IMG/VR virus record: IMGVR_UViG_3300030090_002704
Span: 1-38,617 of that record
Direction: 5' to 3' (one strand)
DNA: 38,617 nt
Origin: a virus
Position 1 is the first letter of the stretch, and each line of letters starts with the position of its first letter. Positions 6,699 to 38,010 of the stretch are shown here, piece by piece. The translations under genes were made by a program, and so were the position numbers. The notes beneath the pieces are model-generated. The model saw only the letters and a program-made list of their open reading frames with translations, was not told the origin of the DNA and ran no database searches.

Positions 6699-6937
6699 GT
6701 GAACGATTGGCACTGAAAAAAGAAATTCTAGCCATGATTAAAAACGGACTTTGTTCCAAACAAAGTGGCATGAAAGCTTCAAACTGCATTCGGTTTATTG
6801 AAGACGATGAAATCGAAAGTATGAAAACACATGAGGCGGTTAATCTCGCATTTGAGATCTCAAAAACTAAAACACACCAACAAATTTTCGGAGCGGAAGA
6901 AGTTTTTGCTGATCTTGAAAAGAGGTATGGCAAGTGA
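6695..6937 (+). CDS. small hypothetical protein
   Basis: An 80-residue protein starting at GTG (GTGA overlap with the previous stop) with GGAGG 7 nt upstream. It looks helical, with MSERLALKKEILAMIKNGLC at the start. No family recognised. It ends by overlapping the GTG start of the methyltransferase, so the two are translationally coupled; it might accompany the enzyme. Confidence 0.55.
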   Translation: MSERLALKKEILAMIKNGLCSKQSGMKASNCIRFIEDDEIESMKTHEAVNLAFEISKTKTHQQIFGAEEVFADLEKRYGK

Positions 6938-8037
6938 AATACGCAACCGTCTGTTCGGGCGTTGAAGCCTGTTCCGTGGCGTGGGAGCCACTAGGTTGGC
7001 AACCAGTTTTCTTTTCTGAGATTGAGGACTTTCCGTCAGAGGTTCTCAGCACACATTATCCAAGCGTCCCCAACCATGGGGACATGACAAATTTTGAGGA
7101 GTGGGGTTATGAAAGAGGAGCAGTTGACATTATTTGCGGAGGAACACCTTGTCAGTCTTTCTCCGTCGCAGGACTCAGAAGAGGACTCAGCGACGACCGA
7201 GGCAATCTTGCTCTCACGTTTTGCAGAATGGTTGATCAGTTGCGCCCCAAATACTTCATCTGGGAAAACGTTGCCGGATGTTTGTCATCCAATGGAGGAC
7301 GGGACTTTGGTTCCATCACAGGGGCGATGGCAGAATTCGGGTATTCATTTGGATGGCGTGTGTTTGACGCACAACACTTCGGAGTCCCCCAAAGAAGGCG
7401 TAGAGTCTTTCTTGTTGGATGTTCTACAGGACAGCCAGAGCATATCCAACAAATATTGTTTGAGCCAGAAAGCCGCAGAGGGAATTCTGCGGAGAGCCAA
7501 GAGACGGGGCAAGACTCTGCCCGAAACACTAGAGACGGCACTGAGGTCTTTGATTTCCAACGAATTGGTCAGTACGGAACCAAGGGCATAGGATCGACTT
7601 GCATGGCGCGGGACTACAAGGACTCAAAAGACTTGGTCGTGTACGAATACCACGGCCACGATTACAGAGTCAAAGAGCTAGATCAGACCGTCACGTCGAG
7701 GTGGGACACAGGTGGCAACAATGTGCCATTGGTCTCGTTCAGTTCAAACATGTCTGAGCCTGATGTGCTTGAGAATGTAGCACCGACGGTCAAGGTTGGT
7801 GGCAGTGGGTGCAGTAATCCTCCTGCTGTTGCAACAGAAAAACTGGTGCGTCGATTGACCCCGATTGAAGTCGAACGGTTACAGGGTTTTCCAGACGACT
7901 ACACAAATATTCCGTGGCGCGGTAAGACCGCACCGGATAGCCGTCGCTATAAGGCGATGGGTAATAGCATGGCAGTCCCTGTCATGCGTTGGCTAGGTCA
8001 GCGTATTGCTGACATTGAGGAGGGTAACAATGAGTGA
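6934..8037 (+). CDS. DNA (cytosine-5) methyltransferase
   Basis: A 367-residue enzyme that transfers a methyl group from S-adenosylmethionine to C5 of cytosine in a specific DNA sequence. Motif I is TVCSGVEACSVAWE (5-18), motif IV is GGTPCQSFS with catalytic Cys73, motif VI is ENV (111-113), motif VIII is QRRRRV (153-158) and motif X is YKAMGNSMAVPV (339-350). All key motifs are intact. The target recognition region, about 165-310, gives no clue to the site. No restriction partner is visible, so it is probably an orphan enzyme protecting phage DNA from host restriction. The GTG start is coupled to the previous gene. The C-terminal EEGNNE comes from a 25-nt cassette that recurs 148 bp later. 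Confidence 0.92.
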   Translation: MKYATVCSGVEACSVAWEPLGWQPVFFSEIEDFPSEVLSTHYPSVPNHGDMTNFEEWGYERGAVDIICGGTPCQSFSVAGLRRGLSDDRGNLALTFCRMVDQLRPKYFIWENVAGCLSSNGGRDFGSITGAMAEFGYSFGWRVFDAQHFGVPQRRRRVFLVGCSTGQPEHIQQILFEPESRRGNSAESQETGQDSARNTRDGTEVFDFQRIGQYGTKGIGSTCMARDYKDSKDLVVYEYHGHDYRVKELDQTVTSRWDTGGNNVPLVSFSSNMSEPDVLENVAPTVKVGGSGCSNPPAVATEKLVRRLTPIEVERLQGFPDDYTNIPWRGKTAPDSRRYKAMGNSMAVPVMRWLGQRIADIEEGNNE

Positions 8038-15821: not shown

Positions 15822-17341
15822 CAGAGCAATTAATCTTTGGTCCTCCAGGATGTGGAAAAACACACACACTCATGGAGATTATTCGTGATGAACTCAATGC
15901 GGGGACCCCACCGGATAGGATCGGCTTTGTTTCTTTTTCCAGAAAAGCGGTTAATGAAGCAAGAGAACGTGCCGGTGCTGCTTTTAATCTGACTGAAAAA
16001 GATACGCCGTACTTCCGCACCTTGCACTCATTAGGATTTAAATGGCTAGGCATGAAGACAACTCAAATGATTAACGCCTATGATCTTGCAAAGATTGGTA
16101 CAGATATGGGTTTGTTTTTTGATAATAGAGATGTGTTTGATGAAGATGGTTTGATGATGCAGTCTGCCAGAGAAGGCAATAAGTACATGACTATAATTCA
16201 TCGTGCCGCTATGAGACGGGTCTCTTTGGATAAGGAGTTCAACTTAACTGGAGACCACAGACTACATTTTCCAATACTTGTAAAACTGTCTAAGTTGTAC
16301 AACTCGTACAAAGAAGAAACCGGTAAGCATGATTTTACAGACATGATTAAGTTGATGGTGGAGCAAGGCACGGCTCCGGTGTTGGACTTACTGATTGTTG
16401 ATGAAGCACAAGATCTTACCCCGTTGCAGTGGGAGCAGGTTAAATTACTGCGTAACAATGCCAAACGTGTCTATTACGCAGGTGACGATGACCAAGCAAT
16501 TTTTAAATACACGGGTGTAGATATTCGCTGTATGTTAAACGTCTGCGATGATTTAAAAATATTAGATCAATCTTATCGAGTGCCCAGAGCGGTGCATCAT
16601 TTAGCTAACAGAATCTCTTCAATGATAGGAACCCGTAAAGTTAAAAACTGGGAACCCACAAACCACGATGGATCTATTCGACACTACATTAATATCAATC
16701 AGATTGACATGGATGAAGGATCTTGGACAGTGATGGCAAGAACAACAAAAAACCTAAGAGCATTAGGGGATAACCTAAAAGCAATGGGTATCTTGTACAA
16801 AATCAACGACAGTCTATCCTTCAATGAAAAACTTTTAAGATCGATTAACCTCTGGAAAGAGCTACAGGCAGGTGAGTTTATTTCTGTAGAAGAGGCTGAA
16901 CTCTTGTACTCACACCTACCAAAACGGGGTAATGATGCAATGGTTAAGTATGGTATGGCTAAGACACTTAAAGAAGTAGACTCTGAGAAACCTCTGACAT
17001 ACAACGCCTTGGTTGAGGATCATGGGTTATTGGCAAGTAAAGAATTAATTGCAGAAAAATTATTGCGTATCTCAGAAGAGGACTTGAGATACCTTAATGC
17101 GATTCGTAGAAGAGGTAAAATATCCACAGACCCATCTATAAAACTGTCCACTATTCACAGGATGAAGGGTGGAGAGGATGACAATATTGTACTGTTAGAC
17201 GATATGGGTTATCTGCCATACAAAAATTATGTAGAGGGCAACCCAGATGACGAGCATCGAGTTTTTTACACAGCCGTAACTAGAACAAGACAGAACCTAC
17301 ATATCGTGCAAACGGGTTCTAATCACAGGTACCCACTATGA
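15818..17341 (+). CDS. UvrD/Rep-like superfamily 1 DNA helicase
   Basis: A 507-residue SF1 helicase. Motif I is GPPGCGKTHT (8-17), motif Ia is FVSFSRKAVNEA (37-48), motif II is VDEAQD (194-199), motif III is GDDDQAIF (222-229), motif IV region has QSYRVP, motif V has STIHRMKGGEDD, and motif VI is YTAVTRTRQNLHIV near the C-terminus. It is shorter than bacterial UvrD (about 720 aa) because the 1B/2B inserts are reduced, as is common in phages. It probably unwinds the fork ahead of the polymerase. Start at 15818 overlaps the HTH stop (ATGA). Its stop overlaps the PP-loop gene start. Confidence 0.88.
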   Translation: MTEQLIFGPPGCGKTHTLMEIIRDELNAGTPPDRIGFVSFSRKAVNEARERAGAAFNLTEKDTPYFRTLHSLGFKWLGMKTTQMINAYDLAKIGTDMGLFFDNRDVFDEDGLMMQSAREGNKYMTIIHRAAMRRVSLDKEFNLTGDHRLHFPILVKLSKLYNSYKEETGKHDFTDMIKLMVEQGTAPVLDLLIVDEAQDLTPLQWEQVKLLRNNAKRVYYAGDDDQAIFKYTGVDIRCMLNVCDDLKILDQSYRVPRAVHHLANRISSMIGTRKVKNWEPTNHDGSIRHYININQIDMDEGSWTVMARTTKNLRALGDNLKAMGILYKINDSLSFNEKLLRSINLWKELQAGEFISVEEAELLYSHLPKRGNDAMVKYGMAKTLKEVDSEKPLTYNALVEDHGLLASKELIAEKLLRISEEDLRYLNAIRRRGKISTDPSIKLSTIHRMKGGEDDNIVLLDDMGYLPYKNYVEGNPDDEHRVFYTAVTRTRQNLHIVQTGSNHRYPL

Positions 17342-18156
17342 AGTTTTTTCGTGAGCTAGAAAACCCACAACTAGTTGTAATCAGTTTAGGTGCTGGTGTT
17401 CAGTCCTCTGTACTGGCATTGATGGCAGAGGAAGGATGTTTCAGTAGAAAACCAGACTGTGCCATTTTTGCAGACACTGGGTGGGAACCAGAGGGAGTGT
17501 ATGAACATCTTGAGTGGTTAAAGACACAGTTAAGTTTTCCGGTGTACACGGTGCAGAAAGGCAACATCAGAGACGATTTGCTTAACGAAGACAAGAACAA
17601 GAACTATCGTAGTGCTCCTTTCTTTACAGAGAACGGAGGCATGAGCCGAAGACAATGCACCAGAGAGTACAAGATAGAGCCTATACGTAAAAAAGAAAGA
17701 GAGCTTATAGGTTTGAAACCAAGACAACGTGCTCCGAAAGAACCAGTTGTTGAAGTGTGGATCGGCATCAGCACAGACGAGATGCAGCGAATCAAAGAAA
17801 GTAAAGACACCTGGTCACATCATCGGTGGCCTTTGATAGAGAAACGAATGTCCAGATCAGACTGTCAACAGTGGTTTGCTGAACGTCACGAAAACCGTGT
17901 GCTACCACGGTCAGCTTGCATCGGTTGTCCTTATCACAATGACGATGAATGGCGGCACATGAGAGACAACGACTCCGTGTCTTGGCAAGACGCTATTCTT
18001 TTTGACAAGCAGTTAAGAACAATAGAAAGAAAGATGGAAAACAAGGAGTACGTTCATAGAAGTTTAAAACCACTAGACCAAGTTGACTTAACCACTCCAG
18101 CAGATCATGGACAGTTAAGTTTTCTTGATGAGTGTGACGGAATGTGTGGGATGTAA
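17338..18156 (+). CDS. phosphoadenosine phosphosulfate reductase-like PP-loop protein
   Basis: A 272-residue protein of the phage PAPS-reductase-like family. The PP-loop is VVISLGAGVQSSVLALM (about residues 13-29), followed by AIFADTGWEPEGVYEHLEWL. Cysteines lie in RRQCTREYK and CIGCPYH, which could bind a metal or Fe-S cluster. Real sulfate reduction is doubtful in a phage; the fold adenylates substrates, and relatives act in sulfur-based DNA modification (DndC) or tRNA modification. Position between helicase and DNA polymerase favours a nucleic-acid modification role, which is inference. Ends one base before the polymerase start. Complete by length. Confidence 0.82.
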   Translation: MKFFRELENPQLVVISLGAGVQSSVLALMAEEGCFSRKPDCAIFADTGWEPEGVYEHLEWLKTQLSFPVYTVQKGNIRDDLLNEDKNKNYRSAPFFTENGGMSRRQCTREYKIEPIRKKERELIGLKPRQRAPKEPVVEVWIGISTDEMQRIKESKDTWSHHRWPLIEKRMSRSDCQQWFAERHENRVLPRSACIGCPYHNDDEWRHMRDNDSVSWQDAILFDKQLRTIERKMENKEYVHRSLKPLDQVDLTTPADHGQLSFLDECDGMCGM

Positions 18157-20052
18157 ATGAAAGATACGAGCACGATTAATTATCTAGACAGAGAAGAACT
18201 CGACAACATGGAGGTTGATTGGTGTGCCCCAGAGATCTTTCCAGACCTGACATCCTGCAAAGATATTGCGGTTGACTTAGAGACCTGTGACCCGAACATC
18301 AAAACGTTGGGACCTGGATGGGCTCGAGGCGATGGGTACGTTGTGGGAATAGCTGTGGCTGCGGGGGATTTTGTGGGTTATTTTCCCATCCGTCACGAGA
18401 ACAACGGCAACATTGACCCAAAGATTGTATTCAAATGGTTACAAAAACAACTAGATACGCCACATATCAATAAAATTTTTCACAATGCAACCTACGATTT
18501 GGGTTGGTTAAGGCACGAGGGTATCGAAGTTAAAGGCAGGATCATAGACACGATGGTCGCTGCGCCTTTGTTGAATGAGAACAGGTTCAGTTACAGTCTG
18601 GATAGCGTAGGCCGTGAGTATACCGGCGAGCGTAAGAACGAAAAGTTATTAAGAACTGCTGCTAAGAACTGGGGCATTGATCCCAAGTCTGAGATGTGGA
18701 AACTACCGGCTAAGTTTGTTGGTCAGTATGCGGAGCAAGATGCCGCCATGACTTTGAGTCTTTGGAGGGTGTTTGAGAAAGAGTTGGTGCGCGAAGAGCT
18801 AACTTCTATCTTTGAGTTGGAGACAAGTCTGATACCCTTGATGTTGGACATGCGACAAAAAGGTGTATTGATTGATCTAGATAAGGCAGAACAAACCAAA
18901 AAACTTTTACATGAGCAAGAAGAGCAGATTAGAAAAGAGATCAAAAGGAGCACAGGCGTTTTGGTTGAGCCTTGGGTGGCGACTAGCGTTGCCTCTGTTC
19001 TTGAACACTATGGCATCGAATACAAAACAACAGATAAAACGAACCAGCCCTCGATTACAAAAGCGTATTTGCAATCAATACCGCACGAGGTCGCGGGGCA
19101 GATACTTAAACTAAGAGAATTGAACAAGGCGAACAGCACATTCATTGACTCGATCCTGCGTTATCAACACAACGGTAGGATTCATTGTGAGTTTCATCAG
19201 TTGCGTAGCGATGACGGTGGGACGATAACGGGACGTTTTAGTTCGAGCAACCCGAATCTACAACAGATTCCTGCCCGTGATCCTGATTTGAAGAAAGCAA
19301 TCCGTGGATTATTTATCCCAGAGCCCGGTGACCAGTGGGGCTCGTTTGATTACTCAAGCCAAGAGCCAAGATTGTTGGTTCACTACTGTCATGTTTTGTC
19401 TGGCAATGCGTCAGACTCTAATATTCAAACTATTGTTGATGCATACCAACAAGAGGATGTGGACTTTCATCAGATGGTTGCAGACATGGCAGGAATCGGA
19501 CGTAAAGAAGCAAAGACCGTGAACCTTGGCATCATGTATGGCATGGGTCGCGGCAAATTAGCCAACACTCTAAATATTAGTCAGGACGAAGCCAAAGAAC
19601 TGTTGAATACATACCATGACAAAGTGCCTTTTGTTAAAAACTTAGCTGATTCTGCGTCTACCAGAGCAGCCAAGTACGGCAGGATACGCACGTTGTTAGG
19701 ACGTAAATGTCGGTTTGATTTGTGGGAACCGACTACCTTTGAATACACCAAACCATTGCCACTAGAAGAAGCTAAGAAAGAGTATGGCCCAGGCATACGC
19801 AGGGCGTTTACATATAAAGCCCTTAACAAGCTCATACAAGGTTCTGCTGCGGATCAAACAAAGAAAGCAATGGCTGAGTGCTACAAAGAGGGATTGATCC
19901 CTCTACTGACCGTACACGACGAACTGTGCTTCAGCATCAGTTCCGAGGAGCAAGCATCGCGGATCAAAGAGATCATGGAGATGTGCGTTGATCTTCGTGT
20001 GCCAAGCAAAGTAGATCAGGAGTTGGGTGACAACTGGGGCGAGGTTGGATGA
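18157..20052 (+). CDS. polA: family-A DNA polymerase with 3'-5' exonuclease
   Basis: A 631-residue replicative polymerase. The DnaQ-like exonuclease is intact: VDLET (Asp40, Glu42), FHNATYD (Asn110, Asp114) and YAEQD (Tyr191, Asp195). The polymerase has motif A FDYSSQE (Asp398), motif B RKEAKTVNLGIMYG and motif C VHDEL (His587-Asp588-Glu589). There is no 5'-3' nuclease domain. The residue matching E. coli Phe762 is Leu457 (NLG in motif B); in viral surveys Leu at this place is linked with slower or temperate-like replication. No DnaJ-type insertion between domains, unlike HMO-2011-type phages. Starts right after the previous stop; ends with an ATGA overlap. Confidence 0.93.
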   Translation: MKDTSTINYLDREELDNMEVDWCAPEIFPDLTSCKDIAVDLETCDPNIKTLGPGWARGDGYVVGIAVAAGDFVGYFPIRHENNGNIDPKIVFKWLQKQLDTPHINKIFHNATYDLGWLRHEGIEVKGRIIDTMVAAPLLNENRFSYSLDSVGREYTGERKNEKLLRTAAKNWGIDPKSEMWKLPAKFVGQYAEQDAAMTLSLWRVFEKELVREELTSIFELETSLIPLMLDMRQKGVLIDLDKAEQTKKLLHEQEEQIRKEIKRSTGVLVEPWVATSVASVLEHYGIEYKTTDKTNQPSITKAYLQSIPHEVAGQILKLRELNKANSTFIDSILRYQHNGRIHCEFHQLRSDDGGTITGRFSSSNPNLQQIPARDPDLKKAIRGLFIPEPGDQWGSFDYSSQEPRLLVHYCHVLSGNASDSNIQTIVDAYQQEDVDFHQMVADMAGIGRKEAKTVNLGIMYGMGRGKLANTLNISQDEAKELLNTYHDKVPFVKNLADSASTRAAKYGRIRTLLGRKCRFDLWEPTTFEYTKPLPLEEAKKEYGPGIRRAFTYKALNKLIQGSAADQTKKAMAECYKEGLIPLLTVHDELCFSISSEEQASRIKEIMEMCVDLRVPSKVDQELGDNWGEVG

Positions 20053-20501
20053 ACCTTGAAGCTTGTCCGATCACAATTACTGAAGCCAATGACTTCGTTG
20101 CAGAGCATCATCGGCACAGCAAGAAAACACAGGGCGGTCGTTTTGCAATCGGTGCTATCTGCAACGGTCAGCTTGTAGCTGTAGCAATTGTAGCCAGACC
20201 GGTAGCGAGAAGAGCGGACGATAGGTATACGGCAGAGATCAGGAGACTGTGTGCCTGTCCTGACGCTCCAAAAAATACTTGCTCCTTTCTGTATGCAAGA
20301 TGCTGGAGGATCTGGCAGCAAATGGGTGGCACAAGAATGATCACGTTTACACTACAAAGTGAGAGCGGATCAAGTCTTCGTGGTGCCGGTTGGAAGATAA
20401 CTGGAGAGAATAAAGCACAGACCTGGGACGTTCCAAGCAGGAGCCGTGAACCCCAAGACGTATACTATCAGGACAAGTTTCGTTGGGAGCCTTCGGCCTA
20501 A
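20049..20501 (+). CDS. XF1762-like / GNAT-like protein
   Basis: A 150-residue protein. CPITITEANDFVAEHHRHSK, then GRFAIGAICNGQLVAVAIVA, EIRRLCACPDAPKNTCSFLY and MITFTLQSESGSSLRGAGWK follow, as I recall, the XF1762 family, which has a GNAT acyltransferase-like core. Phage Mu Mom, a DNA adenine modifier, is also GNAT-like, so DNA modification is a possible role; substrate unknown. It is the last gene of the replication operon, coupled to polymerase by ATGA. Its TAA overlaps the lysozyme's stop on the other strand at 20498-20501. Confidence 0.72.
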   Translation: MNLEACPITITEANDFVAEHHRHSKKTQGGRFAIGAICNGQLVAVAIVARPVARRADDRYTAEIRRLCACPDAPKNTCSFLYARCWRIWQQMGGTRMITFTLQSESGSSLRGAGWKITGENKAQTWDVPSRSREPQDVYYQDKFRWEPSA

Positions 20502-20926
20502 AAGTCTGACGAATCTTCGCCTGTTTCCATCATGTCCCTCAAACGCTCCGCTCGAGCACCCACCTGAGATGCCCAACGGCTGTCCATCATCTGGATTGAT
20601 GCTTCTTTGTAGTCCCCTTCATCCAGAGCTTGGATCATCTTTTTGAACTGTTGGAAGCGAGGCATTCCAAGGTTAAACACCATATCAATCACGACACGTT
20701 GACGCACTTCATCAAGATCAGGATACCAATCAAACGTTCTGACCAGTTCGTCGGTAGCGATGTTGACATCGTTGTTGAGGATATAATCGATCTCATCATC
20801 GGACAGTCCTCGTTCCTCGATGTTCCTACCCACGCCTATGGTTAAATATCCGGCTGTACATTGGTATGGTTTTCTCTCAACCCCCTCATGTAGCCTAAGC
20901 TGTGCAAAAAGTCTTTGTCTATCCAC
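20498..20926 (-). CDS. T4-type lysozyme (glycoside hydrolase family 24 endolysin)
   Basis: A 142-residue enzyme that cleaves the glycan chain of peptidoglycan to release progeny. The catalytic pattern E-8-(D/C)-5-T is present as Glu14, Cys23 and Thr29 in the segment LHEGVERKPYQCTAGYLTIG; Cys replaces the Asp of T4 lysozyme, an accepted variant in this family. Later segments (QRVVIDMVFNLGMPRFQQF and RWASQVGARAERL) match the helical lobe. No signal or anchor segment is visible, so a holin is needed. It is the last gene of the late operon, overlapping the preceding large virion gene by 8 nt. Confidence 0.9.
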   Translation of the reverse strand: MDRQRLFAQLRLHEGVERKPYQCTAGYLTIGVGRNIEERGLSDDEIDYILNNDVNIATDELVRTFDWYPDLDEVRQRVVIDMVFNLGMPRFQQFKKMIQALDEGDYKEASIQMMDSRWASQVGARAERLRDMMETGEDSSDF

Positions 20927-23900
20927 GTCTTGTCTCCAAGTCTTGTGCTAACTGCTGTGTCCGCAAATTAGGAATTAAAGTGGGTGAGGTTCTTGGTATG
21001 GCTGCCACTGCTTGTGCTGGTGCGGCCACTGGTGCTTGAACCGGGGCTGCTGCTTGTGGTTGTGCAGGTTGAGGTGTAACAGGCTGTGCAGGTGCAGGTG
21101 TCTGTATTGTAGTTTCAGGAACAAACAGGTTTTCTGGTATTTCTTCTGGTTCTTGAACAGTTAAATCTCTACCACGAAGCTCTTGAGCAATATCAAATAA
21201 TTCGGTGTTTGGCAGTCGAGTAACGATACGAGGCTGTTTTAAGTAGTTAGCTTCTCTGGCTATATCCTGTCTAACTTTTCCACTGACACGGAACGGTTCA
21301 AATTTTCCTCTCATCACAGCGTTAAGTTCTCTGTTACCCATGCCTGTTTGTTTCTTAAGAGCGAACCGTATTTTTTGATCGCTCATGCCTAGCTCTCTAG
21401 CGGCATCAACAACCTGTTTTAATTGTGCTTGTGCTCGGAACAAATCTTCGTTTGTTCTTCTGTAAGCGTTTACAATCTCTTCTTCCGTAGAATCATTTCG
21501 TTTAGCGATAGAGCTAAAATTACCCACGGCATCGGATCGTAAACCAGTGTATTCATATCCTCGGTAGAACAAGGTGTTTGGAAGGTCTACATCCATTCTT
21601 CTGAAGCCAGTAAATGCAGTTAAAAGTTCTTCTTTTCCAGTGCTCTCTTGTCCTTGTCTACCAGGTATGTTAGCCAGTGCTCTGGTCACTCTGCCTGGGA
21701 CAAACTCACCCCCTCTTTCCAACACAAACTGTTCGACCAAACCGGGGTTGAAACCGCCAAGAATATGATTAAAACTTTTTCTCAACTGCTCTCCAGAGTT
21801 TTCTGATATACCATATATTTCGGCTCCAAACCCTGTTTTTCCACCACGTCCAAAGTAGCTTTGCGGTAAAACGTCTTGCAGTCTTTCTGCTATCAGAGAC
21901 TCTCCTGCAAACGGTTCAAAAAATGTTTTTATACCTTGGAACAAACCAGCCGATAGGTTAGCAACCTCGTTCTCACTAACCTCTCCTTTCTCTCCATACA
22001 CACGGAGAGCTTGTCTTGCTGGAGCTAGAGCAAAGTCATACGGGTTCATGTAACTAAAATCAATGTATTGCATTTTACCGTCTTTAGACTTATCTAACGG
22101 TATTAATACGTGACCTCTCATGTACTCTGGAACCACTTTTTGTAAGGCATTCATCTCTTCTTCTGATGTGTCTGTGAGACGCATAGCAGATTTTTGTGCG
22201 GCTAGTGGAATAGCGTAAGCAGAACTCACATAAGCGGTCAGTCTTCCTGCACCAATTGCTCGGATTTCTTTTTCTAGTTGACGAGCGTTTTTTGGCCCTA
22301 TCTTTTTTATCATTTTGGGCGTTGCCTTAAACGATAACTCTTTAACACCTTGGTTAAATATGTTTGAGGTATTACGGATGATCTCAGCCGGGAAAGCGAT
22401 AAAGTTTCCTATGAAGGGCACTCTTCGTATTGCTTTAATTGATTCAGGCACACGAGAGTAAACAGGCATTGTCTTCTTAACAATGTCTGATGCAAATAAA
22501 TCTAAGAAAGAAGCGTCATCTAAGACCCCAGAAAGACCCGCTTTTCTAGGCGCAATGCCAGCAGCAACCAGACCATCGATTACCTCACTGTCCAACTTGT
22601 CTACGTTTAATTTTGATTTTTTGAACGCAGCGGCATATTTGGCTTTCTCTCCTAATAGTCCAGCAACTTTCCAGAACGTATCTGTTCCTGAGTAAACTTT
22701 TTGTAAGGCTCGTACCCCTGGAGTTTTATCAAGGATGGACTGAAGACCTGCGGCTGCTTTGCCTGAAAACTCTAAAGTTTTTCCTTCTTGCAGTAACTGT
22801 CTAAACTCATTGACCTGTATGTTTTGGTCTCTGATTCCTAACCGACCAGTTAAATTATAAAATTCCTTAAAGTCATCATCTGCTAAATCAGCCGCTTTAC
22901 CCCAAGTCAGCCGCCATGAGTCGTTGAGTTCCATGTTTCTAACGACGTTGGCGTTGGCACCAAGAAAGAACGATCCCGATAAAAAGTTACGCACTTGAGC
23001 CAGTGGGTTGAGAACGGTTTTAGCCATTTGTGAAAGACCTTTAGCTTGCAAGGAAACAGCCAAGGCTTCTTGCAATCCGTTCTGTGCTCGAATGGGCACT
23101 GTCAGTCCATTGTAAACTTCAGGAGCAACATAGCTGCCTGTAAGAGTGCCATACGCACCACCAAAAGCAGATTTTGAGTTGAAATCACCAAGTTTTTCGT
23201 AGCCTTGATCCTTTAATTGTTTTGCTTGTGCGGGAGATAGGTTAAATCCACTGACTACAAGTGGTCTGCCTCCCGCGTTTATCTTTGTCAGAGCACTGTC
23301 GATGTTTTCACGAAAGTTATTAGCGATGTTGGTATATAAGTTATTACCAGCAAAGAAGTTGCTCAGATCGCCCACAGTTCGTAGATAAATTTCTTTAGGG
23401 TCTGTGACCTGTTTTAGCATGGTTCTTAACGTGGGGGACTCATCAAGAAGCTTTATTCTATCTTGTAAAAGACCCTCAGAAATATTGTACAGTTTTCTTC
23501 TAGGTCCTTCTTGTAACTGTCTTGCCCCTGCGTCAAAACTTTCTTTTTGATTCCTAAGAGCTTGCAACGGATCAAGATCAAGGTTGATCATATCTCCCGT
23601 AAGCTGACGATCAACGAATAACTGAGCCTCCGCTCTAAGTTCTTCATCAGTTCTTGATTTCTTTTTTTTCTTACCTGTTTTTTTGGTAGGAGATTTCATA
23701 GCAGTAAGTACTTCTTCAACAGCTTGTTTGTACTCTGTTGTTTCTCGTATCGATCCGTCCACTACCTTTTTTGGATCTAATGCCCCTTCATAAATGCGTC
23801 GGACATACGACCCTCGATTTTTTGCAAACTCTGCTAATATTTTCTGTTTTTCTTTAGCGTTAACTAGCTGATCTGGTAACTCGTCTATTTGTCTAGCGAT

Positions 23901-25076
23901 TAGATCACTCAATCCATCTATCTGATCTCTCATCACTTGACCAGAAGATACGACCTCTTTTCCATACTCATCTAAAGCCTGTTCTTCTCCCTCTAAAAAA
24001 CGAAACAAGTCGTCATAAGCTTTATTTATTCCTTGTTTTCCTCTACCAAAAAGCCCTTGACCTTTAACAACTTTCTTCAGTTCTTTATCAAAGGTCGTAA
24101 AGTTTTTAGCAGCAATGTCTGTTAGCTCATCAATAAAGGCTTCTGTCGTTGTGACATCTTCATAGATGTCCTTTGGCACAAGACCGGCTGAAGTAAACCA
24201 TTTTTTTAGGTTTTTACTCTCGTTAAATTTATCACCAAGTTTGTCAAAGCCTTTGTTAACTATATTAGCTAAGGTGTTTACACCAGGTGTTTGTGAAAGA
24301 CCGCGCACGGTGCCGCCAACAACAGGAAAAATTGTTTCAAAAGCTCCTGCAAGTGCTGTTCCTTCTGCACCGACTCGTAGCTTATTCCGTAAACGTCGAG
24401 CGGCCTCATCCCTACCAAACAATCCAACGTCTTCTTCTGTCTTTAGATCCTCTGGCAGAGCATCAAAGCCATCAGAAATGGTGGCTTGCCCATCAGTGGC
24501 TACAAAAAAGTCTGCGGCTCCTGCTGCAACGCTTGTTGTTGCTGCCTGTCTTGGTCGGCTACCCAACAAAGTTTTACCAGTTTTGCTTTCGCCTAGTCTT
24601 TCAGCGGCACGTCCCAACCGACTTTTTGATTCAAGAACTTTGCCTCCTTGAGCTACACGACTTGCTCTGGAAAGCCAACCAATAACAGGGATCGCGGCAC
24701 CCGCAAAGTTAACGATGCTTTCGGTAACCTTACCTGCCGTGCCTTCGGGTTCTATACCTAGAGTATCCCTAAGTTCTTCAAAGGATTCAGTGACTTCGCG
24801 AGAGGTGTTCGTGTTAAATGCGGCATCAATACCAGATGCACCTAACTCTACGACACCTTGAGGTATTCGGGTAATACCAGAAAGGGCACCCCTAGCGATA
24901 TCTTCAAAAGTGCCGACCTCTTCTTCAGGTTGAGTTGGGGCTGGAACTGCTGTGTCTCCAAACATTGTTTGGGCTGGAACTGCTGTGTCTCCAAACATTG
25001 TCTGGGTTGTTACAGCCTCGTCCCCAAACATTGTTTGGGTTGTTACAGCCTCGTCCCCAAACATTGTCTTAGCCAT
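20919..25076 (-). CDS. very large internal/ejection-type virion protein
   Basis: A 1385-residue protein, the largest here. Residues 4-47 are four 11-residue repeats of the type TMFGD(E/T)AV(T/P)(T/A)Q. An amphipathic, Gly/Ala-rich part with possible membrane-active helices (ITRIPQGVVELGASGIDAAF and FAGAAIPVIGWLSRAS) follows, then a long, mostly helical body and a Pro/Ala/Gln-rich linker near the C-terminus. I find no recognised enzyme motif. Size, late position and coiled helices fit the internal or ejection proteins of short-tailed phages, which enter the host with the DNA. That role is inference. It starts in a TAATG overlap with the upstream gene. Confidence 0.7.
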   Translation of the reverse strand: MAKTMFGDEAVTTQTMFGDEAVTTQTMFGDTAVPAQTMFGDTAVPAPTQPEEEVGTFEDIARGALSGITRIPQGVVELGASGIDAAFNTNTSREVTESFEELRDTLGIEPEGTAGKVTESIVNFAGAAIPVIGWLSRASRVAQGGKVLESKSRLGRAAERLGESKTGKTLLGSRPRQAATTSVAAGAADFFVATDGQATISDGFDALPEDLKTEEDVGLFGRDEAARRLRNKLRVGAEGTALAGAFETIFPVVGGTVRGLSQTPGVNTLANIVNKGFDKLGDKFNESKNLKKWFTSAGLVPKDIYEDVTTTEAFIDELTDIAAKNFTTFDKELKKVVKGQGLFGRGKQGINKAYDDLFRFLEGEEQALDEYGKEVVSSGQVMRDQIDGLSDLIARQIDELPDQLVNAKEKQKILAEFAKNRGSYVRRIYEGALDPKKVVDGSIRETTEYKQAVEEVLTAMKSPTKKTGKKKKKSRTDEELRAEAQLFVDRQLTGDMINLDLDPLQALRNQKESFDAGARQLQEGPRRKLYNISEGLLQDRIKLLDESPTLRTMLKQVTDPKEIYLRTVGDLSNFFAGNNLYTNIANNFRENIDSALTKINAGGRPLVVSGFNLSPAQAKQLKDQGYEKLGDFNSKSAFGGAYGTLTGSYVAPEVYNGLTVPIRAQNGLQEALAVSLQAKGLSQMAKTVLNPLAQVRNFLSGSFFLGANANVVRNMELNDSWRLTWGKAADLADDDFKEFYNLTGRLGIRDQNIQVNEFRQLLQEGKTLEFSGKAAAGLQSILDKTPGVRALQKVYSGTDTFWKVAGLLGEKAKYAAAFKKSKLNVDKLDSEVIDGLVAAGIAPRKAGLSGVLDDASFLDLFASDIVKKTMPVYSRVPESIKAIRRVPFIGNFIAFPAEIIRNTSNIFNQGVKELSFKATPKMIKKIGPKNARQLEKEIRAIGAGRLTAYVSSAYAIPLAAQKSAMRLTDTSEEEMNALQKVVPEYMRGHVLIPLDKSKDGKMQYIDFSYMNPYDFALAPARQALRVYGEKGEVSENEVANLSAGLFQGIKTFFEPFAGESLIAERLQDVLPQSYFGRGGKTGFGAEIYGISENSGEQLRKSFNHILGGFNPGLVEQFVLERGGEFVPGRVTRALANIPGRQGQESTGKEELLTAFTGFRRMDVDLPNTLFYRGYEYTGLRSDAVGNFSSIAKRNDSTEEEIVNAYRRTNEDLFRAQAQLKQVVDAARELGMSDQKIRFALKKQTGMGNRELNAVMRGKFEPFRVSGKVRQDIAREANYLKQPRIVTRLPNTELFDIAQELRGRDLTVQEPEEIPENLFVPETTIQTPAPAQPVTPQPAQPQAAAPVQAPVAAPAQAVAAIPRTSPTLIPNLRTQQLAQDLETRRG
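24936..25067 (-). repeat. four tandem 33-bp repeats encoding TMFGD-type peptides
   Basis: Four exact-length 33-nt units encode residues 4-47 of the large virion protein. Units 1-2 share TMFGDEAVTTQ; units 3-4 share TMFGDTAVPA(Q/P). The pairing suggests successive duplications. Confidence 0.85.
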
Positions 25077-33961: not shown

Positions 33962-34257
33962 CACAGTCTCCTTATGTATTCAGCCAACTTGTCATGGCCT
34001 GAATCTTTAATTGCATTATACACAGTCGTTCGATCTGAACGAATCGCCTGTTTCATGTACAAAACAATGATTTTTTCAAGATTCGCACGAAAAGCATGAG
34101 CTTGCTCTCTTACTTCTGGCGTGGCGTGGTCAGATATGCTGATAATTTTATTAACACACCGGGCCGTAACTTCTTCAGGGGTCTGACCTCTGTTATCAGT
34201 TGTTTGTATCTCAACCTGAAATGCCGGTCCAAAGTCCATGCTCATGCCATTCATCAT
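33961..34257 (-). CDS. small helical hypothetical protein
   Basis: A 98-residue, mostly helical protein (EVREQAHAFRANLEKIIVLY near the middle). It overlaps the adaptor gene's stop at its start and the next gene's start at its end, so it is co-translated. I recall similar small helical proteins between adaptor and virion genes in marine phages; role unknown. Confidence 0.6.
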   Translation of the reverse strand: MMNGMSMDFGPAFQVEIQTTDNRGQTPEEVTARCVNKIISISDHATPEVREQAHAFRANLEKIIVLYMKQAIRSDRTTVYNAIKDSGHDKLAEYIRRL

Positions 34258-34904
34258 TGTTTCTGCCTAACCACCTTACCTGCACGATACTCGTGTGTAA
34301 CTTCTTTCGCTTCGCCAAGCATCTTCAACGTGCTTATCGCTTCAACTAGTCGAGCGTTGTAATTTTGCAACACATCTGCTTCACCTTTCATAAAAGTGTA
34401 TGCCTCATAAAGAGAGCCGTACAAAAGAGCAAGCTCTGCGTTTTCCGAAAGCCATGTTGTGCCTGAATCTCCGCCTGTCGTTAAGCTTCCTGGTCGATAG
34501 TAGTAATGTAATTCAACAGCAAGCGCACTAGCAGGGGTTGGTGCAATAATAAAGTTGCTCACATCAAACACTGCATAGTATCTGGGAGTGCCTGTTGTAG
34601 CAGCATTAGGTGTAAATTCTTGTAAGAAGTTAACGTCTTTGAAATCTAAGAAGTTTTTATTACTACTGCTATCTGTAAACGACAAAGAAAACGGTGCTAG
34701 AAAATCACTTGGTATCGCCAGAAACTGATCTGACGCACTAAAGTTGGCTGTTACGTTTTTACGAAAAAACGATAGTTGAACGCTTTTTAGGATGCGTTCC
34801 TCTGCCGCTCTGATAAACAAAGGAAGATTGTTGACGAACGTTGTCTCTGTGTTTTCAGTGTAGTCTTGTATCGCTGTTTTTAACGTTGCAAGTGTAAAGC
34901 TCAT
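34254..34904 (-). CDS. phage adaptor / head-tail connector-like protein
   Basis: A 216-residue protein. The opening LATLKTAIQDYTENTETTFV, then FIRAAEERILKSV, IPSDFLAPFSL and VELHYYYRPGSL, and a helical end (ALLYGSLYEAYTFMKGEADV) match the family usually annotated as phage adaptor protein. These form the ring between portal and tail. Neighbouring connector-like genes support the call. Start overlaps the preceding stop (ATGA). Confidence 0.75.
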   Translation of the reverse strand: MSFTLATLKTAIQDYTENTETTFVNNLPLFIRAAEERILKSVQLSFFRKNVTANFSASDQFLAIPSDFLAPFSLSFTDSSSNKNFLDFKDVNFLQEFTPNAATTGTPRYYAVFDVSNFIIAPTPASALAVELHYYYRPGSLTTGGDSGTTWLSENAELALLYGSLYEAYTFMKGEADVLQNYNARLVEAISTLKMLGEAKEVTHEYRAGKVVRQKQ

Positions 34905-35201: not shown

Positions 35202-35879
35202 TCAGAACCTTATGTACTGGATATCTGGCTGAAGTTTCAAAGACACTCGATCCTCGTCTTCGTCTGCCGCACGTTGAAACTCTTCTTCATACACTACTTT
35301 TAATAACTGCACTCTTTCAGGCGCACGTTTTAGGGCCAGATAGTAAGCCAGACCAGCAACCATGCAAGGTAGAAAACGATACGGCAAATCTGTTGTGTTA
35401 ACCAAAGTGTCGGCATCTTCTATCCTAGTGATGTAGTAATACACAAGTATGTCAGAACTGTTCTCTGGTGTAGGCCAAAGCGTGATCTCAGGACTAATCT
35501 GACGGTTGAAGTAAAACTGTGACGGTCTTCCTGATGTGGTTTTGACAGGAATATTTAGAAACTCACTACGGCTTATACGATCAACACTAAAATCTGTGCC
35601 ACTGCGACGGATAGCAACCTCAAGAATATCACTCATAGGAGTGGCTAATCCGTTGCTTGACGTATAAGCAGCCGTGCCTGATGTCACAGTTAATGTGCCC
35701 TGACGAACTGTCCATAGGTTTACCCCACGGTTCGCCCACTCTGAGAACATGATGTTTAATGATCGACGTGCAGTTTTAGCGTCATAGCCTGTTCGTAATT
35801 CAAGCCCACATCTTTCGTAGGCTTCTTCAATTACATCTGCAACGTCAAGATCAAAGTCTGTTGATCCTGAAGTTGCCAT
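35202..35879 (-). CDS. head-to-tail connector-like protein (tail tubular A / gp4-type)
   Basis: A 225-residue protein. DVADVIEEAYERCGLELRTG, LNIMFSEWANRGVNLWTV, FYFNRQISPEITLWPTPENS and LPCMVAGLAYYLALKRAPER follow the pattern of short-tail connector proteins that contact the portal, like T7 gp11 or P22 gp4 in role. The match is by layout from memory. It starts right after the Lys-repeat gene's TAG and stops 1 nt before the next gene. Confidence 0.75.
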   Translation of the reverse strand: MATSGSTDFDLDVADVIEEAYERCGLELRTGYDAKTARRSLNIMFSEWANRGVNLWTVRQGTLTVTSGTAAYTSSNGLATPMSDILEVAIRRSGTDFSVDRISRSEFLNIPVKTTSGRPSQFYFNRQISPEITLWPTPENSSDILVYYYITRIEDADTLVNTTDLPYRFLPCMVAGLAYYLALKRAPERVQLLKVVYEEEFQRAADEDEDRVSLKLQPDIQYIRF

Positions 35880-36098
35880 CTAACGCTTCCGTTTAACCAT
35901 TCCACCCTTGGCTTTCTTGATCATTCCACCCTTGGCTTTCTTGATCATTCCACCCTTGGCTTTCTTAACCATAGATCCTTTTGAACGTCGCACAACGCCA
36001 CCGTTCATTTTCTTGATCATACCGCCTTTGGCTTTCTTGATCATTCCACCCTTGGCTTTCTTAACCATTTTACCTTTGGACTTCTTACGAACCGGCAT
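35880..36098 (-). CDS. lysine-rich octad-repeat protein (KKAKGGM repeats)
   Basis: A 72-residue protein with 24 lysines and no Asp or Glu. Residues 13-68 are seven octads, mostly KKAKGGM(I/V); two have diverged (KKMNGGVV and RRSKGSMV). It looks like the tails of histone H1 or small nucleoid proteins and should bind DNA or RNA without sequence preference. Role is not known; it may condense DNA in the capsid or on entry. AAGGAG lies 10 nt upstream. It sits two genes after the SET-domain gene, so its many lysines are candidate substrates. Confidence 0.75.
   Translation of the reverse strand: MPVRKKSKGKMVKKAKGGMIKKAKGGMIKKMNGGVVRRSKGSMVKKAKGGMIKKAKGGMIKKAKGGMVKRKR
35895..36062 (-). repeat. seven tandem 24-bp coding repeats
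   Basis: 24-nt units encode the KKAKGGM(I/V) octads at residues 13-68 of the basic protein. On the top strand the units read ATTCCACCCTTGGCTTTCTT and vary little at third positions, suggesting recent expansion. Confidence 0.85.
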
Positions 36099-36115
36099 CT
36101 TACATTACTCCTTAC

Positions 36116-36388
36116 TTACAGTTTTTTGGTCTTTCGACTTGTCTTTCGCTTTGTTCGCACCTTTGCTTTAGGTGTATTAGCGACTACAGTTTTACCTTTC
36201 GCTCCTGCTTTTTTCTTTTTTCGAGCGGTTGCTGCACGTTCGGAACGTGAAAGACTCCTGGCCTTTCCTGCTGGTAAGCAGCGATCAGGATTCTTCTTAT
36301 CTTTGCTTGTGCCACAGGGTCCTTTGATCTTCCCGTCTGTTCCGATCCGCACCCAGTTTTGTTTGAGCCATTTTTTTAACTCGCCCAT
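36116..36388 (-). CDS. basic protein with conserved WVRIGTDGKIKGPCGTSK segment
   Basis: A 90-residue protein. The N-terminal 45 residues (KWLKQNWVRIGTDGKIKGPC, then KDKKNPDRCLPAGKARSLS) are a conserved marine-phage and cyanophage module with two cysteines. The C-terminal half is a Lys/Arg/Ala-rich tail (ATARKKKKAGAKGKTVV, then KVRTKRKTSRKTKKL) like a histone tail. Family possibly DUF5872-like; unsure. It is the gene directly downstream of the SET-domain gene. Confidence 0.68.
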   Translation of the reverse strand: MGELKKWLKQNWVRIGTDGKIKGPCGTSKDKKNPDRCLPAGKARSLSRSERAATARKKKKAGAKGKTVVANTPKAKVRTKRKTSRKTKKL

Positions 36389-36403
36389 CGCACAACCCTT
36401 ATG

Positions 36404-36724
36404 TCACATATCGTAGTCTAGCACTATCTCTTCACCTTCTTCTATCTTGTGAAGAGTCACTAAGTTGTAGACTTTGTAATCATCCCAATCTTGAGACAAC
36501 GCTAAATAACAGTTGGGCTCCTCTGAATGGTTGATAAAACCACCCAGTGGAGTTCGTATATACCCAGCAATCATAGGCACTTTAATATGTGTGCTGCCCA
36601 AATCAAACGCTTCTTCTATACTTTGCGTAGCAAAAATACCTAACCCATCTATATCACTTTCACCCACCGTCACTTCTTCAGGTAACGGTTTGTAGTAAAA
36701 CCTGTCGTATCTAAGCCTTGCCAA
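36404..36724 (-). CDS. small SET-domain protein lysine methyltransferase
   Basis: A 106-residue protein with the SET signature. DGLGIFAT (26-33) is the G-x-G motif I, GGFINHSEEPN (61-71) carries N65-H66-S67 for S-adenosylmethionine binding, and EEGEEIVLDYDM (95-106) carries the final D-Y with Tyr104 as catalytic Tyr. It has no pre- or post-SET domain and is close in size to the viral vSET enzyme (about 119 aa) of chlorella virus, which methylates histone H3. SET enzymes methylate protein lysines. It lies amid seven very basic proteins in the late operon, so phage structural or DNA-binding proteins are its likely targets. Overlaps the upstream gene by 14 nt. Confidence 0.83.
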   Translation of the reverse strand: MARLRYDRFYYKPLPEEVTVGESDIDGLGIFATQSIEEAFDLGSTHIKVPMIAGYIRTPLGGFINHSEEPNCYLALSQDWDDYKVYNLVTLHKIEEGEEIVLDYDM

Positions 36725-37001
36725 ACTGTCTCCTGATTGCTTCTTTGCCCCGTTTGGCTATTCTAGCTTGTTCTTGTTTACCAGCTACTTTTGCTCTTTG
36801 TTCCATAACGGTCAATATCTGTATCTTTCTGGCAAACGGTTTCTTAACCTTTTTAACTTTTGCTACGGTGTCTCTAGCATCCTGAACCGTTGCATATTTT
36901 ATCCTAACAGTGTCTTTAGGATTTTCGTCTGTATACAAACGTCGTCCAGAGCCTTTAGGCTTTTTACCTGTTCCTTTTACCGGATCTTTTTTTCTTGCCA
37001 C
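36711..37001 (-). CDS. conserved basic marine-phage protein (MARKKDPVKGTGKKPKGSGR)
   Basis: A 96-residue protein, clearly basic. MARKKDPVKGTGKKPKGSGR, then RLYTDENPKDTV and VKKPFARKIQILTVMEQRAK form a pattern I recall from many marine phages and cyanophages; no function is known. Lys-rich N-terminus and helical Arg-rich end suggest nucleic acid binding. Overlaps both neighbours, including the SET-domain gene at its end. Confidence 0.7.
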   Translation of the reverse strand: MARKKDPVKGTGKKPKGSGRRLYTDENPKDTVRIKYATVQDARDTVAKVKKVKKPFARKIQILTVMEQRAKVAGKQEQARIAKRGKEAIRRQFGKA

Positions 37002-37107
37002 TGATTACACTCTGTAATGTTTTAGCTTGTCCAGCATGAGTCTTTGATGCTTTCTTCAAGGCACTAATGACTTTCTTCACTTTGCTTTTAGCACGTTTAG
37101 CAACCAT
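36964..37107 (-). CDS. very small basic protein (47 aa)
   Basis: MVAKRAKSKVKKVISALKKA begins a 47-residue frame that continues SKTHAGQAKTLQSVISGKKK and ends in RSGKRNR. It is a single amphipathic basic helix with a Lys/Arg tail. The start has only a weak AGG upstream. It overlaps the next gene by 38 nt, more than other pairs, but the ordered composition shared with its neighbours makes it likely. Confidence 0.6.
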   Translation of the reverse strand: MVAKRAKSKVKKVISALKKASKTHAGQAKTLQSVISGKKKRSGKRNR

Positions 37108-37115
37108 CTTAAAAC

Positions 37116-37400
37116 CTATACACTAACTGTTTTCTTTTTACGGTCAGGCATAACTGCTCCACAGCCTGTGGCAACAAACCCACCGTTCTTCATACCTTTA
37201 ACAGAAGTATTTATTAAACCGCCGTCCTTCCTGCCTTTACGTTTGCCACCTTTGGCTTTCTTGGCATAGTTAGGATCTTTACAGTATTTCGATGCAGCAA
37301 GGTTTGCATACGCTGACGGATAGGTATCAAAAGTTCGTTTAGCCCAAGCTTTGCCCTCTGGACAAATCTTACCGCCTTTTTTCTTAGCCTTTTTTGCCAC
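37116..37400 (-). CDS. basic conserved marine-phage protein with cysteines
   Basis: A 94-residue protein: AKKAKKKGGKICPEGKAWAK, then TFDTYPSAYANLAASKYCKD and PNYAKKAKGGKRKGRKDGG, ending in FVATGCGAVMPDRKKKTVSV. The KICPEGKAWAK...YPSAYAN...CKDPNYAK module and the G-C-G-A-V-M-x-x-R-x-K-K-T tail are recurrent in marine phages; role unknown. I choose the GTG at 37400, 8 nt after GGGAG, instead of the ATG at 37454, which lies deep in the preceding gene and has no site. Contains the KKAKGG unit of the 72-residue repeat protein. Confidence 0.7.
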   Translation of the reverse strand: MAKKAKKKGGKICPEGKAWAKRTFDTYPSAYANLAASKYCKDPNYAKKAKGGKRKGRKDGGLINTSVKGMKNGGFVATGCGAVMPDRKKKTVSV

Positions 37401-37545
37401 GCTTCTTTCTCCCTGCACAATATGCTCTTTCGGAAAAACCTTTTGGTCTGGCACAATTTACAGACCGCTTTCTTTTAGCACTCCACTTCTTCTTTTGCGG
37501 AGGCTTTGAAACCTGCTTGGACATACTGCTACGTCCCATAGCCAT
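37384..37545 (-). CDS. small basic protein with CARPKGFSERAYCAGRKKR motif
   Basis: A 53-residue protein. MAMGRSSMSKQVSKPPQKKK precedes WSAKRKRSVNCARPKGFSER and AYCAGRKKRGKKG, with two cysteines 14 residues apart. The start at 37545 overlaps the upstream stop as TAATG; later ATGs at 37539 and 37524 are possible. It is another member of the basic cluster; perhaps a small structural or DNA-binding protein. Confidence 0.62.
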   Translation of the reverse strand: MAMGRSSMSKQVSKPPQKKKWSAKRKRSVNCARPKGFSERAYCAGRKKRGKKG

Positions 37546-37724
37546 TAGACTAATTGCTCCGCTACTGCTGCCGCAACTATCAATACAGCTAGACCCCACA
37601 AGCGTTTGTCTAATTTGTCCAAGGTTTTTCTTTGTTCGTGCAATTGTTCTTCAATGCGTTCATAACGCATGTTGCACTCTGCACCATGTTGCTCAAGCTT
37701 TGCTAAGACTTCTTCTGCTTTCAC
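37545..37724 (-). CDS. XhlA-like / holin-like small coiled-coil membrane protein
   Basis: A 59-residue protein starting at GTG 1 nt after the upstream stop, in a TTAGC/GGAGAT context. Residues 1-42 form an acidic coiled coil (MKAEEVLAKLEQHGAECNMR, YERIEEQLHEQRKTLDKLDK), followed by one TM helix (LWGLAVLIVAAAVAEQLV) at the C-terminus. This soluble helix plus C-terminal TM layout recalls XhlA-type lysis-associated proteins. It may act as a holin or accessory lysis factor with the lysozyme at 20498; no other holin is visible. The only acidic member of the basic gene cluster. Confidence 0.65.
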   Translation of the reverse strand: MKAEEVLAKLEQHGAECNMRYERIEEQLHEQRKTLDKLDKRLWGLAVLIVAAAVAEQLV

Positions 37725-37725
37725 G

Positions 37726-38010
37726 TTAGCATCTCCATCTTCTTCGAGCTTGTCGCAAACGGCTATTAGGATCTTTTGCTGCTTTTGGAAACTTCTTCAT
37801 CTGACCTGCGGATCGGGCGCAGAAGGACTTTCTTCGAGCTTTTTCTTTTGCTGTCAGGTTCTTTTTCTTAGTAACGGCAGTTTTAAGCTTGCTACCAGGA
37901 TTGTCCCGTCGGTATTTAGCAACCCCCGCCTTGGTCATACCCGCACCGGCTTTAGTCGGACGAAAGTATTTTTTCGTCTTAGGGGGTTGCTTGTCCCTCT
38001 TTCTAGGCAT
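37726..38010 (-). CDS. basic marine-phage protein, DUF6321-like
   Basis: A 94-residue protein: GAGMTKAGVAKYRRDNPGSK, LKTAVTKKKN and AKEKARRKSFCARSAGQMKK, then NSRLRQARRRWRC. The G-A-G-x-T-x-A-G-V-x-x-Y-R-x-x-N-P-G-S-K-L-x-T-A-V pattern followed by a K-S-F-C-A-R-S-x-G motif matches DUF6321 as I recall it; function unknown, often found in cyanophage and other marine phages. Strongly basic. The ATG overlaps the preceding gene by 8 nt. Confidence 0.75.
   Translation of the reverse strand: MPRKRDKQPPKTKKYFRPTKAGAGMTKAGVAKYRRDNPGSKLKTAVTKKKNLTAKEKARRKSFCARSAGQMKKFPKAAKDPNSRLRQARRRWRC

Follow-up and report, generated by a model that had tools for sequence, protein, structure and literature searches.

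A SET-domain protein, probably an accessory lysine methyltransferase, in a late basic-gene cassette of a marine phage

The window, meaning the whole stretch of 38,617 nucleotides analysed here (IMG/VR record IMGVR_UViG_3300030090_002704), contains a small SET-domain gene among genes for small lysine- and arginine-rich proteins. The favoured reading, to which we give a probability of roughly 0.65, is that this gene encodes a working accessory protein-lysine methyltransferase, placed in a variable late cassette of basic genes whose presence does not depend on it. This reading is based on the predicted fold, the conserved motifs, purifying selection, the patchy distribution of SET, and the persistence of the basic array where SET is absent.

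The locus and the SET protein

The window comes from a podovirus-like marine phage, of which the record is incomplete. The right end of the window falls inside the late region, just upstream of 38605, and further late genes are missing. For the late gene T216 (34254-34904), distant relatives are found in Pelagibacter phages HTVC023P and HTVC027P. This kinship to Pelagibacter podoviruses suggests a bacterial host, in which histones are not expected.

Two other features of the window may be recorded here. A 1385-aa protein (ORF 20919-25076, minus strand) has an N-terminal 33-bp tandem repeat at 24934-25067, in about 4 copies, which encodes TMFGDEAVTTQ-like units. On the plus strand there are genes for a Mom-like DNA modification protein (20049-20501), a DNA methyltransferase (6934-8037) and a PAPS-reductase-like protein (17338-18156), which judging by their sequences suggests that the phage DNA is modified.

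Nine ORFs, all on the minus strand, occupy positions 35880-38010; the same nine are picked by an independent gene caller based on codon usage. A preliminary description of this DNA had reported nine consecutive genes, and its positions and sizes agree with the following:

35880..36098, minus strand: B72, KKAKGG repeat protein, 72 aa, with a 24-bp (8-aa) tandem repeat
36116..36388, minus strand: B90, basic protein, 90 aa, of the conserved phage family phrog_23735
36404..36724, minus strand: stand-alone SET-domain protein, 106 aa, TTG start, RTPLGGFINHS signature
36711..37001, minus strand: B96, helical and basic, 96 aa, immediately upstream of SET
36964..37107, minus strand: B47, basic protein, 47 aa, supported by ORF and gene caller
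37116..37400, minus strand: B112/94, basic protein, 94 aa from an internal GTG (the ORF has 112 aa and extends to 37454), of the conserved phage family phrog_27331
37384..37545, minus strand: B71/53, basic Cys-containing protein, 53 aa (the ORF has 71 aa and extends to 37599)
37545..37724, minus strand: C59, acidic coiled-coil protein with a hydrophobic C-terminus, 59 aa, pI 5.6
37726..38010, minus strand: B94, basic protein, 94 aa, Pfam DUF6321 (1.9e-14)

The seven small Lys/Arg-rich proteins described earlier do flank SET, with a pI of 10.2-12.0 and a K+R content of 27-40%. Basic genes make up 7 of the 9 at the locus, versus one or two among the roughly 50 genes called elsewhere in the window. 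The ninth ORF, the acidic C59, stands outside these seven; it has weak similarity (E=0.004) to phrog_1193, a family of phage hemolysins. DUF6321, the family of B94, has matches in 251 phage records, mainly of cyanophages and pelagiphages.

The label ‘histone-tail-like’, earlier given to all seven, fits only the 72-aa KKAKGG protein, which is the sole low-complexity lysine repeat among them. B94, B90, B112 and B96 belong to conserved families or are helical. The genes were also said to overlap. This is the case for B96 and SET (14 bp) and for B96 and B47 (38 bp), while others are separated by gaps of 8-17 bp.

The SET gene has an AGGAG upstream of its TTG start. An intact SET domain had been proposed for its 106-aa product, with structure prediction as a check, and both hold up. 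The protein belongs to the Pfam SET family PF00856 (3.8e-9, 37.3 bits against a cut-off of 22.4), and it matches phrog_28741 at 4e-22. An AlphaFold (AF2) model has a pLDDT of 91 and takes the SET fold, with structural Z scores of 12.4 for MLL1 and 11.9 for vSET.

The GxG, NH and Tyr motifs are present, and G27, G29, N65, H66 and Y104 are invariant in an alignment of 29 phage homologues. From what is generally known of the family, we take these to be the SAM-binding and catalytic positions. Their conservation makes it likely that the enzyme is active. Where it can be measured, dN/dS against relatives is 0.02-0.12, which indicates purifying selection. Judged by sequence and model, the window SET protein probably methylates lysine in proteins.

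In a tree, it lies inside a phage-only clade (100/99), apart from a group of bacteria and cyanophages. NCBIfam returned nothing specific, and neither did literature searches on phage SET, DUF6321 and lysine-rich phage proteins; no description of a phage SET enzyme was found in the limited library searched. This SET family is genuine and, in phages, seems not to have been described before.

Distribution of SET and of the basic array

At least 579 IMG/VR stretches are confirmed to encode the SET family. The best 80 of these at least 579 loci, 4 from isolates or single cells, and 2 more, were grouped into 30 clusters at 90% identity. The samples for SET, B96 and the lineages are all top-80 lists by identity, and many of the contigs are fragments.

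Among the clusters at least 71% identical to the window, 9 of 10 have an adjoining basic gene. Below that (about 70%), 17 of 20 have no basic gene within three genes. The neighbours of these distant SET genes, named from sequence, are glycosyltransferase-, terminase-, primase- and DNA-methyltransferase-like genes or tail genes. Myo-, sipho- and podoviruses all have homologues, and the genes around these vary. Kolga EXVC016S, P-SSM7 and Rhodoferax phage P26218 have SET without a basic array, and in P-RSM6 a single 45-aa basic ORF adjoins it.

In freshwater podoviruses (L086:4455-5330, which is Rhodoferax phage P26218, L087 and L088) the SET domain lies within a protein of 250-294 aa, adjoining DNA-ejection and stabilisation proteins.

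A scan of bacterial genomes also found SET relatives in apparently true chromosomes of Flavobacteria and Porticoccaceae; the remaining matches on bacterial contigs resemble phage sequence. The bacterial homologues examined sit in unrelated chromosomal contexts, and no basic genes accompany them. In Flavobacteria (L260:2486-6870, L262, L273) SET is part of an arginine/proline biosynthesis run, argG-argC-SET-proC-argD. In Porticoccaceae/HTCC2207-like bacteria (L250, L254, L255, L256, L258, L276, L277) it has a conserved place between a fabB-like ketoacyl synthase and a peroxiredoxin, followed by ssb. The best reading of this distribution is that SET is a mobile accessory lysine methyltransferase carried by marine bacteria and phages alike.

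The array was also looked at from the other side, in phages that share the window gene T225 (35202-35879) and were sampled regardless of SET. This T225 lineage has 5 SET-bearing and 35 SET-free phages (dereplicated), and the array occurs in both groups. Of the eight genes upstream, on average 5.2 are basic in the SET-bearing phages and 3.9 in the SET-free phages; 34 of the 35 SET-free phages have at least one.

All this bears on the proposal of the preliminary description, taken here as a chromatin-like system in which SET would methylate the array's basic proteins and these would pack the phage DNA. SET is indeed physically linked to basic genes and overlaps one, nearly all close SET clusters adjoin such genes, and there are precedents in cpnSET-Hc1 and Go1-SET-MC1-alpha (PMC3980110). 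But the co-occurrence check that came with the proposal turns out against it: related phages keep the array without SET, while most divergent phages, isolates and bacteria carry SET without the array. The proposal is now highly improbable.

The array as an obligate partner of SET was likewise considered and rejected, since each is common without the other. Because the array is kept without SET and B96 has varied neighbours, the array looks like a general, shuffled feature, and SET like an occasional insertion. The pairing appears mostly coincidental. The 9 of 10 close clusters with a basic neighbour do make a lineage-specific functional pairing possible. The K-rich arrays of these phages are a general feature of their own standing, and are no evidence for a methylation system.

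B96 and the possible substrates

One neighbour stands somewhat apart. B96 is strongly conserved and helical, with a fairly confident model, for which Foldseek finds no match at E<1. No other family neighbours SET as often; it is present within 4 kb in 14 of the 30 clusters. In another lineage, for which a gene unrelated to these served as the marker, B96 occurs in 11/12 SET-bearing versus 11/30 SET-free loci.

On contigs of at least 28 kb, B96 is present in 19/22 with SET versus 4/21 without (Fisher 1.2e-5, relatedness not removed), the SET-free contigs being a non-random sample from three lineages. For DUF6321 the same comparison gives 16/22 versus 9/21 (p=0.07, relatedness not removed). Some SET contigs, such as L055, have B96 at a distance from SET. 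It is at least suggestive, on these counts, that B96 is the only neighbour family that tracks SET, and B96 is a candidate substrate or partner.

These associations are the case for a second explanation, in which B96 is the sole partner of SET and becomes methylated by it late in infection. That explanation remains doubtful. The association was counted without removing phylogeny, and a test of SET against B96 on independent pairs had one or two informative pairs and thus low power. Among the best 80 loci by identity to B96, SET is present in 3 and absent in 77. For the isolate phages with SET, the phage collection gives no match to B96. Among the SET-linked B96 examined, no SET-specific lysine was found; the ARK lysine, K59, was considered as such a site and rejected, being replaced by Leu in 23% of them.

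The marine phage loci selected by B96 (L165-L244) show shuffled arrays of many small basic families (for example MALKKSQRSLKSWTKQKW, DUF6321 and PSAYAN types) whose order varies, and across these loci the genes next to B96 differ widely. A lineage chosen by a tail gene (L357-L436) has no SET at all.

In a third explanation, SET serves host takeover by methylating a protein of the host, such as one of the nucleoid, the ribosome or the translation machinery. That homologues occur in phages of all three types (myo-, sipho- and podoviruses), amid differing genes, is consistent with this, and the closest characterised viral analogue, vSET, targets host histone H3 (PMC7019647). The late-gene position, here and in many relatives, would however be easier to reconcile with a target that is late or in the virion than with takeover early on. 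Host takeover is a tentative explanation.

For the favoured reading, that of an accessory methyltransferase, the following course of events is inferred. SET would be expressed late in infection, would bind SAM, and would methylate one or a few specific lysines, not the whole array. The likeliest substrates are B96 or a host protein. Taken singly, each candidate is less likely than not: a host protein comes first, the co-encoded helical B96 slightly behind it, and another late or virion protein slightly behind B96. Given that most related phages are without this methylation, it would be a fine-tuning step. The more ambitious claim, that phage SET specifically methylates late basic B96, acting on phage DNA or the virion, as a switch spread across marine phages, is distinctly less probable.

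Protein-lysine methylation by phages is apparently unexplored in the literature searched. With SET relatives in cultured phages and in at least 579 IMG/VR stretches, the substrate can be sought now. If B96 were the target, phages would offer a parallel to the control of chromatin-type proteins by SET; if a host protein were, it would be a new route of takeover.

Comparison with known systems

PBCV-1 vSET (A612L) is an H3K27 methyltransferase of a chlorella virus that is packaged and acts on host histone (PMC7019647). The window protein resembles it in being a small stand-alone viral SET of similar length, with a Z of 11.9 and 2.4 A over 89 residues. The two are however only 27% identical, and the target of vSET is a eukaryotic host histone, versus a presumed bacterial host here.

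Among prokaryotes, Chlamydia pneumoniae cpnSET has been reported to methylate Hc1, a small basic DNA-binding protein, and Methanosarcina mazei Go1-SET methylates the small chromosomal protein MC1-alpha in vitro (PMC3980110). By these two examples, a small basic protein that binds DNA can be a substrate of a SET enzyme in prokaryotes. The window protein shares with cpnSET that it is a prokaryotic SET enzyme, and its own substrate is putative. Go1-SET differs in being archaeal, cellular and non-phage, and in lacking a basic-gene array. In C. trachomatis, Hc1 was not methylated by NUE (PMC2904774). This makes the cpnSET-Hc1 precedent a mixed one, and shows that such expectations can mislead.

The phage relatives, all annotated as hypothetical, are the SET homologues of Pelagibacter phage Kolga EXVC016S and cyanophages P-SSM7 and P-RSM6, at 42-49% identity, and that of Rhodoferax phage P26218, at 33%, where a 291-aa protein contains the domain. 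These four differ from the window in having other neighbours and no adjoining basic array.

The stand-alone SET proteins of marine Flavobacteria and Porticoccaceae have the same RTPLGGFINHS signature and a Pfam SET match. They differ in being chromosomal, in the argG-argC-SET-proC-argD or fabB-SET-peroxiredoxin order given above, and in the absence of basic genes.
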